This document shows, piece by piece, positions 16,210 through 23,775 of a stretch of DNA of 23,775 nucleotides. The stretch is taken from positions 1 to 23,775 of the IMG/VR virus record IMGVR_UViG_3300036832_001505; one strand, 5' to 3'. The number at the start of each line of letters is the position of its first letter. The first letter of the stretch is position 1. Both the position numbers and the translations under genes were made by a program. Origin of the DNA: a virus. The notes beneath the pieces are model-generated. The model was given only the letters and a program-made list of their open reading frames with translations, was not told where the DNA came from and did no database searches.

Positions 16210-16243
16210 TTTAGGTGACTACACCTCCCCACGATCACCTAAA
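16210..16243. promoter_or_regulatory. 34-bp dyad site between the divergent operon and the integrase: attP core or operator
   Basis: Perfect 9-bp arms, TTTAGGTGA (16210-16218) and TCACCTAAA (16235-16243), with a 16-base asymmetric spacer containing CACCTCCCC. The position, 80 bases before the integrase start, and the arm/spacer geometry are like serine integrase attP sites, for example the dyad arms of phiC31 attP. However, the inner core recurs at 17947-17979 over the repressor promoter, which favours an operator. Both readings remain open. Confidence 0.5.
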
Positions 16244-16277
16244 GTCTCCGGCGCCGGATATGGTTACGGCTCCCCCG

Positions 16278-16294
16278 GGCGCCACAGCGGCGCC
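16278..16294 (+). repeat. Short hairpin in the integrase leader
   Basis: GGCGCC, five bases, GGCGCC in the 5' region of the integrase gene. A palindrome CCGGCGCCGG (16248-16257) and TATGGT (16259-16264, a possible -10) lie just upstream. No -35 element is visible. Weak evidence. Confidence 0.25.
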
Positions 16295-16322
16295 AGGGTC
16301 ACCTCACTCAAGGAGACAAACG

Positions 16323-17828
16323 ATGACCACCCGCAGCCCTACTGGCCGCGTCACGCCCAAGAAGACCAACCTCCGCTGGATCATTTACTTCCGGCTCTCC
16401 ATCGGCGACCCCAACATGCAGCGCGACGCGGCGCGCCAGCGCGCCGAGCTCTACGGTCTGGTGGAGCGCCAGGGTGGAACGGTGGTGGCCGAGCTGGGCC
16501 AGGGCGACCGCAGCGCTTCCGAGTTCGCCACCCGGAAGCGGTCGGAGTATGCCGAGGCCATGAGGATGATCGACCGCGGTGAGGCCGATGCCATCGCCTT
16601 CAGCCGCGTCGACCGGATCCTGCGCCGGATGGACGAATGCGTGGACCTGCTGCGCCGGGTGCGGGAGACAGACCTGGAGGTGTGGGACTGCTCCGAGGAC
16701 GAGGAGATGAGGCTGAATACCGCCAACGGGCGCAAGCGCCTCCAAGACAAGGTCAACTCGGCCGAGTACGAGACGGCCATAATCTCCTGGCGGGTCAAGC
16801 GGGCCACCAAGGCGCGCCGGGAGGAGAAAGGTCTGCCCACCTCGGGCGCCTGCCTCGGCTGGGCCGACACCACGACCATCTGCGAGGACGAGGCCCGGTG
16901 GGTAGCGGCCATGGTCGAGCGGGTGCTGCGGGGCGAAGCGCTGACTACGGTGGCCCGGTGGCTCAACGCCAACGGTGTCGAGCGTAAGAGGAGCGACCGA
17001 CCGTGGGACGTGTCGAGCGTGGCCTCGGTGGTGACGACCCCTCGCAACTTCGGCCTGCTGGCCTTTCAGGGCGAGATCCTCGGGCCATCGAAGGTGCCGG
17101 GGATCTGCCCGACCGAGAGCTACGGGCAGGTCCGCTCGGCGCTGGCGGAGCGGGCGATGCCCTCGACACGGCCACGTAACGCGTCGACGCTGGCGACGCT
17201 GGTCCACTGCTCGCAGTGCGGGATGGCGATGCTCCGCCAGACCGGAGGCGCCGTCCGGGTCACCCTGGCCTGCCGGCGCCAGCTCTGTACGCCCCGCTGT
17301 GGCGCCGGTGGCATCGACTACCAGCTCACCGAGGACCACATCACCGACCTGGTGACGCAGTGGATCGACGGCGCCGAGCTGGCCGACCTGATGGCGCCCG
17401 AGTCCCGGGTGGACACCGACGCCATCGCCGCCGAGCTGGCCCGGCTGGAGGCGAAACTCTCCGAGGCCACCGACGACTGGCTGGACGACAAGATCGATCA
17501 GGCGCGCTACGACACCATCTCGGCCAAGGTCAAGACCCGACGTGAGGAGCTGACCCTTACCCTGTCCCGAGCCACCGCCCACCTGGTCTTGGCAGAGTAT
17601 GTGGGGAAGCCGGGCGCGTTGGCCGAGCGGTGGCCTCGGTTGGCTACGGAGGTGAAGAGGACGATCATCTCCGAAGCGCTGGACCTGCGCCACGTGAGCA
17701 TCGTGGTCGACCCACCGACGCCGGGCGGACCCAACTCGCCAGGCTCCAACGTCCGCTTCGACCCCGAGGACCCGGCCACCCAGGAGGCCACGTGGGCGCG
17801 GATCCGGCTGGAGAAGCGCACCGACTGA
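16323..17828 (+). CDS. int: Serine integrase (large serine recombinase)
   Basis: A 501-residue protein starting at ATG 16323 behind AAGGAG; the frame is open to 16215, but that extension crosses the dyad site and is not protein-like. Residues 18-150 form the resolvase-type catalytic domain: YFRLSIGD with Arg24 and nucleophile Ser26, QRDAARQR, and AIAFSRVDRILRR with further active-site Arg. Residues 155-290 are the recombinase domain (GWADTTTI, WLNANGVERKRSDRPWDVSS, TTPRNFGLLAF). The zinc ribbon has Cys296, Cys299, Cys322 and Cys326, with an extra Cys317. A coiled coil (365-425) follows. It would join attP to a host attB; excision needs a partner directionality factor, and none is recognisable in the window. 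Confidence 0.95.
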   Translation: MTTRSPTGRVTPKKTNLRWIIYFRLSIGDPNMQRDAARQRAELYGLVERQGGTVVAELGQGDRSASEFATRKRSEYAEAMRMIDRGEADAIAFSRVDRILRRMDECVDLLRRVRETDLEVWDCSEDEEMRLNTANGRKRLQDKVNSAEYETAIISWRVKRATKARREEKGLPTSGACLGWADTTTICEDEARWVAAMVERVLRGEALTTVARWLNANGVERKRSDRPWDVSSVASVVTTPRNFGLLAFQGEILGPSKVPGICPTESYGQVRSALAERAMPSTRPRNASTLATLVHCSQCGMAMLRQTGGAVRVTLACRRQLCTPRCGAGGIDYQLTEDHITDLVTQWIDGAELADLMAPESRVDTDAIAAELARLEAKLSEATDDWLDDKIDQARYDTISAKVKTRREELTLTLSRATAHLVLAEYVGKPGALAERWPRLATEVKRTIISEALDLRHVSIVVDPPTPGGPNSPGSNVRFDPEDPATQEATWARIRLEKRTD

Positions 17829-18377: not shown

Positions 18378-18526
18378 CCGCCGTCGCCCTGTTCGCCCTG
18401 GCGTCGTTCGCCGCAGGCGCGCTCACCGCGGCGTACCGCCACCGCCACCCGGCGCAGTCGCCGCTGGCGCTCCACCTGCGGGCGCTGGGCCAGGCAGCCG
18501 CCCGGGCGCGAGGACGGCGCTCGTGA
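18374..18526 (+). CDS. Small single-span membrane protein, 50 aa
   Basis: ATG 18374 overlaps the repressor stop (ATGA), and its own stop overlaps the next GTG (GTGA). Residues 2-20 form one membrane span (TAVALFALASFAAGALTAA). The rest is basic and helical (YRHRHPAQSPLALHLRALGQ, ending RARGRRS), predicted to face the cytoplasm. Such small membrane proteins near the immunity genes are often linked to superinfection exclusion in temperate phages, but there is no sequence evidence of that here. Family unknown. Confidence 0.6.
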   Translation: MTAVALFALASFAAGALTAAYRHRHPAQSPLALHLRALGQAAARARGRRS

Positions 18527-19446
18527 TCACGGTCGTCCTGTGCCTCTACTGGCTCCTCCTGGCGTCAAGCTCGGGCCAGGCTCTGGAGCACTGGGAGCCG
18601 ACAGGCATTCCGGCCGTCGACTCCGCCGTGCGCCGCTGGCTCCCGGCGTCGATGTGCCCGAGCCACTTCAAGGACAAAGACGGGAACGTCCGCGTGGCCG
18701 ACCTGGCCCTGGCCTGCCTGGTGCTCTACGACCTGCGGGTACCACCGCGGCCCAACCTGCCCCAGGTGTTCGTGGTCCGCGGCGCCGTCGGCTTCACCGG
18801 GAAACTCCTGTCGGCGTTGGCGATGCGGGAAGGCTGGGACCTCGAGGAGGTGGGCACGGCCAACGATGGCTCCGCCACGTGGCGCATCCGGCGAATGGAT
18901 AACTGCCTGGCCGACGCATGCCCGCACTGGAAGCCGCCGCGGACCACGACGATGGAGATGGCCCGGAAGGCTGGCTGGACCAAGCGGAAGCGCGACGACC
19001 TGCCCTCCGCATACGAAACGATGGGCGAGCGGATGCTGTCGTGGCGCTCCATCACCTGGCTCATCGACCACTACGCCCCGGGCGTGCGCCTCGGCATCGA
19101 GTCGAACCTCCCCGAGGGAGCGGCGCTGGACTGGGCAGACTACGACGCCACCGGGCCGGAGCTCGTCGGGGAGGTCGGTGAGGGACCGGTGGCGTCGCCA
19201 GGCTCGGTTGGCTCGGACGAGGTGAAAGGAGCCCAGGTCTACGGTCAGACTCCGGGCCAACCGACCGGGCTGGCGCCAGCGGAAGCTCCGCCACCTCCGC
19301 TGGCCTCGCCCACTCCGGTCGAGGTGGTCGTGCCCGACGCCGTCTACGACAACCTGCCCGAGGCACGCGGGATGGGCCTCGGCCAGCGCCAGCCGCGCTA
19401 CGACCCTGACGACGCCACGACCAAAGAGGGGATCCCCAACCCATGA
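18523..19446 (+). CDS. RecT-like single-strand annealing protein (remote match)
   Basis: A 307-residue frame from GTG 18523. Residues about 39-195 follow the RecT layout: LPASMCPSHFKD, VADLALACLVLYDLRVPPRP, LPQVFVVRGAVGFTGKLLSA, LAMREGWDLE, then MEMARKAGWTKR and YETMGERMLSWRSITWLIDH, YAPGVRLGI. RecT proteins anneal DNA strands during phage replication and recombination. Residues 220-307 are Pro/Ala-rich and probably disordered. The first 20 residues (ITVVLCLYWLLLASSSGQA) are hydrophobic like a membrane anchor, which is odd for this family. A later start (GTG 18628 or ATG 18652) is possible but lacks a good ribosome binding site. Cys128 and Cys133 are extra. The call is by pattern and moderate. 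Confidence 0.6.
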   Translation: MITVVLCLYWLLLASSSGQALEHWEPTGIPAVDSAVRRWLPASMCPSHFKDKDGNVRVADLALACLVLYDLRVPPRPNLPQVFVVRGAVGFTGKLLSALAMREGWDLEEVGTANDGSATWRIRRMDNCLADACPHWKPPRTTTMEMARKAGWTKRKRDDLPSAYETMGERMLSWRSITWLIDHYAPGVRLGIESNLPEGAALDWADYDATGPELVGEVGEGPVASPGSVGSDEVKGAQVYGQTPGQPTGLAPAEAPPPPLASPTPVEVVVPDAVYDNLPEARGMGLGQRQPRYDPDDATTKEGIPNP

Positions 19447-21611: not shown

Positions 21612-21817
21612 CAGCTACGCCAGGCCCGCTGGGCGAGCTCGACGCGCCGGAGCTGCTGGCGTGGCTCGGACGCTGGAACCGCCAGCTCGCCCGGCTCAGC
21701 GCGCTCGTCCTCATCGAGGTGGACGACGCCCGCGGGCTACCCATCGAGGAGCTGCGCTCGGTGGTGGCGATCACCGCCCAGCACGTCACCGCGGTGCTGC
21801 GCGTCGCCACCTGGTGA
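21608..21817 (+). CDS. Small helical protein, 69 aa
   Basis: GTG 21608 overlaps the nuclease stop, and its stop overlaps the initiator GTG. The product is mostly helical: LGELDAPELLAWLGRWNRQL, then ARLSALVLIEVDDARGLPIE and LRSVVAITAQHVTAVLRVAT. It has no Cys or membrane span. It lies between a nuclease and the replication initiator and is translated with them. A partner role for the initiator is possible only from position. No family is recognised. Confidence 0.55.
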   Translation: MTATPGPLGELDAPELLAWLGRWNRQLARLSALVLIEVDDARGLPIEELRSVVAITAQHVTAVLRVATW

Positions 21818-22323
21818 CCTCTATCGCTTCCCTCATGGCGGCGCTGGACGTCGAGGACCTGGACCCGGTGGCGAAGTTCGCTCTGGTGGCCCTGGCAGCG
21901 CGCTCTGGGCGCTACTCCCTGACCGCCCGGGTGAGCTACACGAGGCTGGCAAAAGACCTGGGCGACGTGGATCGCCGCACCGCCATCCGGGCCGTTCAGC
22001 GGTTGCTGGATCGTAAACTGGTGACTGTGGATAAGCGGCCTGGCGGGACCAATGTTTTCCACATGGGGGTGTCACCCGAGACACCCCCAGGGGTGTCACC
22101 CGAGACCGATGGGGGTGTCACCGGTGACACCCCCTGCCCGGGACAGGGGTGTCACCCCAGACACCCAAAGGATGTTGGAGAAAAACAAGGAGAGGCTGGC
22201 GCCGGCAGTTCCGCTCCTGTGGCTGGGGATAAACCCGTCAACGTCGCGGCGGCCAGGCTCAACGAGATCATGGTCCGCCACGGGATTCCGCACCTCGACG
22301 GAGAGGACCCTGGCGGTACCTGA
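21814..22323 (+). CDS. Replication initiator (winged-helix, lambda O-like)
   Basis: A 169-residue protein from GTG 21814 (GTGA overlap). Residues 17-84 form a winged helix-turn-helix: DPVAKFALVALAARSGRYSL, SYTRLAKDLGDVDRRTAIRA, VQRLLDRKLVTVDKRPGGTN. This is typical of phage replication initiators or replisome organisers. Residues 85-120 are encoded by the iterons and give Gly-Val-Ser-Pro-Glu-Thr repeats. The C-terminal part (ARLNEIMVRHGIPHLDGEDP) is helical. The arrangement, initiator with origin repeats inside the gene, matches lambda O and related phages. The protein would bind the iterons and recruit host replication factors. It ends abruptly at TGA 22321-22323, and a related-looking continuation lies in another frame. 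Confidence 0.8.
   Translation: MTSIASLMAALDVEDLDPVAKFALVALAARSGRYSLTARVSYTRLAKDLGDVDRRTAIRAVQRLLDRKLVTVDKRPGGTNVFHMGVSPETPPGVSPETDGGVTGDTPCPGQGCHPRHPKDVGEKQGEAGAGSSAPVAGDKPVNVAAARLNEIMVRHGIPHLDGEDPGGT
22026..22034 (-). promoter_or_regulatory. DnaA box (perfect)
   Basis: On the minus strand the nine bases read TTATCCACA, an exact match to the DnaA box consensus. It lies 32 bases upstream of the first iteron, within the initiator gene. Confidence 0.7.
22066..22157. repeat. Iteron cluster inside the initiator gene (candidate replication origin)
   Basis: Four copies of GGGGTGTCACC(C/G) start at 22066, 22090, 22112 and 22146. Inverted partial copies (ACACCCCC at 22081, GGTGACACCCCC at 22123, AGACACCC at 22159) lie between or after them. 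The third copy and its partner form a perfect 24-bp palindrome (22111-22134). Such clusters are the binding sites of phage and plasmid initiator proteins. DnaA boxes flank the cluster on both sides, and an A-rich stretch follows at 22166-22194. Confidence 0.75.
22166..22194. other. AT-rich stretch beside the iterons (possible unwinding element)
   Basis: About 17 of 29 bases are A or T, against about one third elsewhere, with a run of five A and a purine-rich strand. It directly follows the last iteron, where a duplex-opening element would be expected. It is also coding sequence of the initiator gene. Confidence 0.35.
22224..22232 (-). promoter_or_regulatory. DnaA box (one mismatch)
   Basis: The minus strand reads TTATCCCCA, eight of nine against TTATCCACA. 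It lies on the other side of the iteron cluster from the perfect box. Confidence 0.4.
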
Positions 22324-22327
22324 GCGC

Positions 22328-22609
22328 GTGGCCTCACCGGCCACCGCCCGCCGATGGATCACCTCCATCAGGCGACGACTCTCCTCGGGAGAGCTCCCCC
22401 CTCAGCAGCTCACCCTCGACCTGGGCGATGAGGCTCGCGTCGTTCCATGCCCGGGGGTGACTTTCAGCGATTCCGCCGATTCACCAGAACCTGGGCATAT
22501 GGTCTGGCCTCCGGCCAGAGCGGCCGGGCTGCACCCCTCACTCAAGGAGCATCATGACACCCAGCACCACCCTCACCGGCGCCGACTTCGAGGTCGGCCA
22601 GAAGGTTGA
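22328..22609 (+). CDS. Possible small basic protein after the initiator, doubtful
   Basis: In the frame +1 to the initiator, GTG 22328 opens a frame whose start (VASPATARRWITSIRRRLSS then GELPPQQLTLDLGDEA) is helical, basic and protein-like. After about residue 37 the sequence is less convincing, and it runs 56 bases into the next gene. The ribosome binding site is poor. Alternatives are that this helix is the C-terminus of the initiator, reached by a frameshift or a sequence error just before TGA 22321, or that the region is simply the 5' control region of the next gene. Confidence 0.33.
   Translation: MASPATARRWITSIRRRLSSGELPPQQLTLDLGDEARVVPCPGVTFSDSADSPEPGHMVWPPARAAGLHPSLKEHHDTQHHPHRRRLRGRPEG
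22503..22519 (+). repeat. Short hairpin in the region before the Lys/Ala-rich gene
   Basis: TCTGGCC, three bases, GGCCAGA: a 7-bp perfect stem 35 bases before ATG 22554. TATGGT (22498-22503, TANNNT) directly precedes it and could be a -10, without a visible -35. Could be a leader hairpin or a weak terminator of the upstream operon. Confidence 0.3.
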
Positions 22610-23775
22610 GTTCGCAGCGAACCGGGTCTGGTATCCCGGCGTCGTCACCAAGGCCACCAAGACCACCGTCACCGTCAGCTACCTCAAGGGTTCCGGCCAG
22701 TTCTACTCCCAGACGGTCAACCCGAGCCAGCCGTTCTCGGCCGGTGGCGCTCTCGGCCACCTCCCCAGCCGGGTGCGCCGGGTGACCGTCTCCCCGCACC
22801 TGCGCGCGGTCGCTCGGGAGGAGGAGAAGGTCACCCTCACTCCCGAGCAGCGGGATCGCTTCATGCAGGCGCTGGCCGACGGCGCCAGCGAGGCTGACGC
22901 TTACGCCACCGCCTTCGAGGACGATGGCGCCGCCATCCTCGGAGCCGCCATCGAGGCCAAGATGGTCGCGGCCGCCAAGAAGGCTGGCCCGGCCAAGGCA
23001 GCCGTCCAGCGAGCGGTCAAGAAGGCCATCGACGCTGGTGCCCCGGTCATCACCGAGAAGGCTGGCCCGACCACGATTCCCGTCATCGGGAAGCTCAAGG
23101 GCAAAGTCTCCGGCCAGCCGGTGACGCCCAAGGTCGCCAGCCTGGCCGGTGCGCTCACCGACACCCTCGACCGCCTAGCGGGCGGGCAGGTCGCCGGGAT
23201 CGACACCCTCCGCGAGGCAGCCACGAGCGGCAGCGAGGCTGTCGCCGCTGGCCTCTCCGCACCGCTGCTGTGCGGCGTGTGCTACCACCCGATGACCGCC
23301 GCACAGGAGAAGGCGTTCGTCAACGGCCGGAACCCGGGCCACAAGGTCCAGGGCTGGTCGAGCCACAAGATCACCCTCGCCACCGACCCCTTCGAGGCCA
23401 AGAAGGCTGCGAAGCGCACCGGCGCTGACCGGCTCCTCCACATGGACGAGGCCCGGGATGCCCGGAAGGCTGCCGCTGCCACCAAGAAGGCTGCGAAGGC
23501 CACCCCGGCCACCAACTCGGCCACCAAGGTGGTGGCCCGCACGGACCCGGCGTTCGTCACCGCCACCAACGTCGCTGGCTTCCCCATCGGCGCGGCCGAG
23601 CCCAACCAGGAGCGGATCGGGCTGCCGGTCCCAGGCCACGACGGCTATTTCGTGCGCTACGCCAGGGGTGCTTACGACCTGGCTGCCCGCATCGGCGACG
23701 TCGACGGCCCGGCGTGGCTGGCGCTGTGTCGCCACGGTGCCTCCGCCAGCTCCGAGAAGCTCATGGGCGAAGGCG
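22554..23775 (+). CDS. Long Lys/Ala-rich protein of unknown function, N-terminal part (partial)
   Basis: ATG 22554 behind AAGGAG (six bases); the frame is open for 407 codons to the window edge. Residues 10-75 look like a small SH3/Tudor-type barrel: FEVGQKVEFAANRVWYPGVV, then TVTVSYLKGSGQFYSQTV and LPSRVRRVTV. Residues 90-130 are helical (TLTPEQRDRFMQALADGASE). Lys/Ala motifs recur (AAKKAGPAKAAV about 140; AKKAAKRTGA and AATKKAAKATPATNSATK about 275-325), recalling the basic tails of histone H1-like proteins. Near residue 242 there is LLCGVCYHPM, a possible metal site with later His. Positive charge suggests nucleic acid binding. No family is recognised. Codon use favours AAG GCT, and the own ribosome binding site suggests strong expression. 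Confidence 0.75.
   Translation, partial: MTPSTTLTGADFEVGQKVEFAANRVWYPGVVTKATKTTVTVSYLKGSGQFYSQTVNPSQPFSAGGALGHLPSRVRRVTVSPHLRAVAREEEKVTLTPEQRDRFMQALADGASEADAYATAFEDDGAAILGAAIEAKMVAAAKKAGPAKAAVQRAVKKAIDAGAPVITEKAGPTTIPVIGKLKGKVSGQPVTPKVASLAGALTDTLDRLAGGQVAGIDTLREAATSGSEAVAAGLSAPLLCGVCYHPMTAAQEKAFVNGRNPGHKVQGWSSHKITLATDPFEAKKAAKRTGADRLLHMDEARDARKAAAATKKAAKATPATNSATKVVARTDPAFVTATNVAGFPIGAAEPNQERIGLPVPGHDGYFVRYARGAYDLAARIGDVDGPAWLALCRHGASASSEKLMGEG

Follow-up and report, generated by a model that had tools for sequence, protein, structure and literature searches.

A candidate lambda-O-type replication origin inside a phage initiator gene, with dyad iterons and adjoining DnaA boxes

The origins of the iteron plasmids P1, F, RK2, and pSC101 lie outside the initiator gene. 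An iteron origin within the gene of its own initiator is a kind already known from phage lambda, whose ori consists of iterons and an AT-rich tract inside gene O, and where DnaA acts through pR transcription and not through ori (PMC7466680). The lambda iterons are bound by dimers of the O protein, and iterons, DnaA boxes, and an AT-rich region occur together in the P1 oriR, F, RK2 oriV, and pSC101 origins (PMC5043065). Here we analyzed the IMG/VR virus record IMGVR_UViG_3300036832_001505, a stretch of 23,775 bases that is probably a fragment and is referred to below as the window, in which an array of iterons inside an initiator gene was found next to exact DnaA boxes.

The initiator gene and its iterons

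The window carried genes for a portal protein, a serine integrase (16215-17825), a RecT-like protein (18523-19443), and an endonuclease-like protein. Matches of the portal protein leaned to actinophages and also included Vibrio, Streptococcus, and Rhizobium phages. GC skew was little informative in this 23.8 kb fragment, in which only 1.5 kb follow the initiator gene. This gene (21835-22323, plus strand) encoded 162 aa from the ATG at 21835, with a GTG at 21814 as a possible earlier start. The protein matched PHROG 270, 'replication initiation protein' (E 1.7e-8), and weakly HTH_36 (E 0.007, below the cut-off of Pfam). AlphaFold predicted a confident winged helix-turn-helix (wHTH) at residues 1-78 (pLDDT about 95), encoded by 21835-22068 and aligned with 23 related initiators, followed by a disordered repeat-coded part with one further helix at 137-149. 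The PHROG 270 match and the AlphaFold model related this N-terminal wHTH to phage replication initiators. No helicase-recruiting or helicase-loader contact domain was recognizable in the protein by domain search. Close relatives of the initiator were found neither in IMG/VR nor among GenBank phages, and the gene was a very divergent member of its family (30% identity or less over 79 columns).

The protein ended about 46 residues past the iterons, and the coding signal went on in another frame. Between 22290 and 22460 the signal, measured as GC at third positions, shifted from frame 1, which has its stop at 22323, to frame 2, which read ...TARRWITSIRRRLSSGELPPQQLTLDLG up to about 22450. A genuine frameshift, an error in sequencing or assembly, or a distinct small gene could each account for this change. 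The open frame that follows (22554-23774) had weak Agenet/chromo-like matches at its start. No close relatives of its protein or of the RecT-like protein were found in IMG/VR.

Four exact copies of GGGGTGTCACC were located on the plus strand, at 22066, 22090, 22112, and 22146, within 91 nt of the initiator coding sequence and directly 3' of the wHTH codons. The first-pass annotation had reported these four copies, all of which were confirmed (22066-22156), and it understated the array. A fifth exact copy was present on the minus strand at 22123-22133, with none elsewhere in the window, and each plus-strand copy formed the left part of a dyad, GGGTGTC-N6-GACACCC. Three of the dyads were perfect, namely iteron 1 (22067-22086, GGGTGTC-ACCCGA-GACACCC), iteron 3 (22113-22132, GGGTGTCACCGGTGACACCC, fully palindromic), and iteron 4 (22147-22166, GGGTGTC-ACCCCA-GACACCC). 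Iteron 2 (22091-22110, GGGTGTC-ACCCGA-GACCGAT) had an intact left arm and a degenerate, broken right arm. As in the lambda-O type, repeated sites were located inside the coding sequence of the initiator.

The four iterons were read in three phases, as GVSP, GVSP, GGVT, and GCHP: iteron 1 lay in codons GVSPETP (phase 1), iteron 2 likewise in phase 1, iteron 3 in codons GGVTGDT (phase 2), and iteron 4 in codons GCHPRHP (phase 0). We also generated 20,000 synonymous recodings of the initiator protein with the codon use of the window. These yielded at most two 11-mers or one dyad, and never four 11-mers or three dyads. The use of three reading frames indicated that selection on the repeats acts on the DNA and not on the peptide.

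Directly after the last iteron, an AT-rich stretch (22160-22196) formed a candidate unwinding element. The 30-mers starting at 22160-22167 were 57% AT, compared with about 31% in the window, which placed them in the top 0.2% of 30-mers. An AT-rich tract beside the iterons is a feature of the lambda-O type, though here a modest one, and its earlier description was correct in that modest form. The same trend was found across 65 related arrays, where the 20 nt immediately 3' of the array showed an AT excess of 16 points and the following 20 nt an excess of 7 points. The lambda-O-like plan of wHTH, in-gene iterons, and AT-rich stretch that had been proposed for the gene was supported by these features and by the PHROG 270 match.

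The same iteron in other phage contigs

The iteron itself was taken as the probe because the initiator, RecT-like, and downstream proteins had no close relatives. A search with the dyad pattern returned 51 contigs, and a search with the direct-repeat pattern returned at least 119 stretches, compared with 43 for a reversed-motif control. The iteron was present in more than 150 IMG/VR contigs. A wHTH HMM was built from the first (dyad) set, and 108 new loci were independent of this HMM. The iteron followed the wHTH within a single ORF in 42 of 51 cases in the dyad set and in 75 of the 108 independent loci; the reversed motif did so in 1 of 43. Family members matched PHROG 270 (56 of 56) and HTH_36 (55 of 56), and matches to other O-like families were frequent. 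In 64 non-redundant genes, the 10-mer occupied all five strand and phase classes that are free of stops, the sixth class giving an in-frame TGA. Across phages the iteron sequence itself was kept, in both orientations and including half-sites without a partner. A strict 19-base dyad search in genome contigs found 3 loci, and in samples of bacterial genomes the iteron was present in 7 of 396 from Actinomycetota and 1 of 398 from a second phylum (control, 0); the iteron was mostly a phage feature. These results indicated that GGGTGTC-N6-GACACCC is common to a highly varied set of phages, among them a Bifidobacterium phage and numerous contigs that lack close relatives.

Several other features were observed in these contigs. 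One gene (L121:242-1045, minus strand) combined a wHTH and in-gene iterons with a C-terminal DnaA_N domain (DnaA domain I, E 8.7e-12), and two others (L012 and L145) had a C-terminal DnaT domain in its place. The element GAACC[AG]TC, often repeated, was found within 60 nt after related arrays (such as L047, L095, and L123) and was absent from the window. GAACCAT occurred in 18 of 64 genes versus 0.1 expected, and GAACC[AG]TC was used in all three phases, mostly as codons EPS. The reversed motif CCACTGTGGG formed close direct repeats in 43 viral contigs (for example L188), almost never beside a wHTH.

DnaA boxes beside the arrays

Exact matches to TTWTCCACA occurred only twice in the 23.8 kb, versus 0.025 expected per window, and both were within 41 nt of the array. 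The first, TTATCCACA at 22026-22034 on the minus strand (TGTGGATAA on the plus strand), is the perfect box upstream of the iterons that had been reported previously, and was confirmed 31 nt before the first 11-mer. The second, TTTTCCACA at 22055-22063 on the plus strand, was absent from the earlier list; it lies 3 nt before the first dyad, adjoining iteron 1, on the side and in the orientation seen for the boxes of related arrays. A near-perfect box claimed downstream was indeed present at 22224-22232 on the minus strand (TTATCCCCA), but it is weak and doubtful, having one mismatch like other boxes elsewhere in the window. The proposed layout of iterons between two DnaA boxes did not hold, as both good boxes are 5' of the array. 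Two exact boxes were reached in 5e-5 of the synonymous recodings, and the adjoining of DnaA boxes to iterons was beyond chance.

Whether these boxes serve the origin was weighed against a lambda-O-type iteron origin without DnaA, in which the initiator and its loader would open the origin and the window boxes would be chance occurrences or coding by-products. An exact box was missing from about three quarters of the related genes that carry this iteron, and in lambda DnaA works via pR transcription and not at ori (PMC7466680). Moreover, the box at 22026-22034 is located in the codons of the wing, and in other genes, too, DnaA-like minus-strand boxes preceded the array by 32-47 nt; the box at 22026-22034 may partly reflect V-D-K codons and is the less certain of the two. 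However, the only two exact boxes of the window are both next to the array, and the same association was found among its relatives. Exact TTATCCACA was counted 14 times in the 38.9 kb lying within 250 nt of arrays and twice in 582 kb elsewhere, an enrichment of about 100-fold (p 1.5e-15, with the window excluded and under an assumption of independence between genes that does not hold). The distribution of boxes on the wHTH tree required 8 changes, which by reading of the tree corresponds to about five lineages. We therefore consider an origin without DnaA unlikely, although it is the strongest of the alternatives. The distribution indicates that DnaA boxes were joined to the iteron in several lineages.

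Box and iteron also recurred as a composite, TTATCCACA-N-GGGTGTCA, which was present in 22 contigs, compared with 1 for the control with the box reversed. Nearly all relatives had 1 nt between box and iteron; the window had 3 nt. In L230 and L231, an inverted box pair, TGTGGATAA-CG-TTATCCACA, directly preceded the iteron and resembled the window pair, which has a 20-nt gap. Searches with the composite site as a short DNA query gave no similar site in plasmids, and among named phages no more than one weak match, in a helix-turn-helix gene of a Caudoviricetes. We tentatively suggest, at slightly less than even odds, that the composite places host DnaA and a lambda-O-like initiator side by side with fixed spacing (TTATCCACA-N-GGGTGTCA), within the gene and in several lineages. 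In the window, the boxes form an inverted pair (22026 and 22055) adjoining iteron 1. If true, the composite site ties an in-gene phage origin to the host's own initiator. As a separate observation, L037 had two DnaA boxes alternating with iterons, each one base before an iteron, as TTATCCACAGGGGTGTCACCCATGACACCC twice.

Proposed origin function and comparison with known systems

Judging from the sequence and its computational analysis, we estimate a probability of about 80% that 22026 to about 22196 is a lambda-O-type in-gene origin, where initiator dimers would occupy the dyads and host DnaA would assist, here and in several lineages. Counting against this reading are the strong divergence of the gene, the end of its protein soon after the iterons with no helicase-recruiting domain recognizable, the modest degree of AT enrichment, a box-to-iteron spacing unlike that of nearly all relatives, the overlap of the box at 22026 with wing codons, and the lack of exact boxes in about three quarters of the related genes. 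The steps proposed are drawn from comparison with lambda with respect to dimer loading, opening, and helicase recruitment (PMC7466680, PMC5043065). The N-terminal wHTH of the initiator would bind the dyad iterons as a dimer, and the codons that carry the iterons would encode a flexible protein linker. The nucleoprotein array may then open the AT-rich stretch on its 3' side (22160-22196), where the host helicase would be loaded. Host DnaA bound to one or both 5' boxes may help to open the DNA or to load the helicase, in the manner of the P1, F, and RK2 origins (PMC5043065).

Dyad sites and a wHTH dimer are equally the plan of a repressor, and the dyads could instead be operators by which the wHTH regulates its own operon, or partition sites. 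The best PDB matches found by Foldseek were in fact generic wHTH regulators and TubR-like partition proteins. However, the sites follow the wHTH codons within the ORF and are not at a promoter, and the commonest profiles of the family are those of replication initiators. The rise in AT after the array, the DnaA boxes beside it, and the C-terminal DnaT or DnaA_N domains of some members also argue against operators or partition sites, which we regard as improbable. Still less probable is that the repeats reflect RNA structure in the initiator mRNA, such as a control hairpin. The plus strand folded better than its shuffles (-71.3 kcal/mol, z -4.75), but such folding is expected of dyad repeats in general, and what is kept across phages is the sequence, in both orientations and in unpaired half-sites, and not pairing through compensatory change. 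Peptide selection for GVSPETP-like linker repeats, to which an open frame giving repetitive peptides lends some appearance, was refuted by the frame test, as one 11-mer was read as GVSP, GGVT, and GCHP in this gene and in five strand and phase classes across the family, and synonymous recoding never reproduced the repeats.

In the open literature searched, we found no description of the shared iteron or of the composite of DnaA box and iteron, an absence that is no proof. Within the scope of that literature, neither the occurrence of one iteron in such diverse phages nor its recurrent association with DnaA boxes has been described. Together, these two features give a sequence-based rule by which origins of uncultured phages can be located, and they make it possible to test directly under which circumstances a phage origin depends on host DnaA.

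Among iteron plasmids (P1, F, RK2, and pSC101), the origin is outside the gene, the Rep protein has two domains, and the iterons are not dyads and do not bind dimers as those of lambda do; the window has an in-gene array, a single wHTH, and dyads. The candidate origin in the window may work like the P1 or RK2 type and is not classed as one. It resembles the lambda ori and the Stx phages P27 and 933W in having a mid-gene origin with four (or six) iterons and an adjoining AT-rich tract (PMC7466680, PMC5043065). It differs from lambda in the sequence of the iteron (GGGTGTC-N6-GACACCC), in the exact DnaA boxes 5' of the array, where lambda involves DnaA via pR transcription, and in its short protein, in which no helicase-loader contact domain is visible. 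The Bifidobacterium phage PMBT6 (AXF39301.1; PHROG 270 / HTH_36) likewise has a wHTH followed by in-gene repeats, and the 8 copies of GGGTGACA in its HTH gene belong to the same iteron class as those of the window. Unlike the window, it has no DnaA box at the gene, and the two proteins are only distantly related. A weaker form of the window iteron was found in Gordonia phage DatBoi. Besides PMBT6 and DatBoi, nine named phages shared the gene plan and carried repeats that differ in sequence from the window iteron. The lambda-O-like genes of Pseudomonas JBD68, Bordetella PHB09, Moraxella Mcat8, cdtI, Bcep176, and Bbif-1 share this plan and differ in iteron sequence (GGGTGCAA, AAGGGGGT, GTAGTGCA, GTCCCAAA, and TGCAAACA). 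All 11 lambda-O-like genes contained an 8-mer in three or more close copies, compared with 10 of 40 neighbor genes. The gene plan is common, and the iteron sequence varies between groups.
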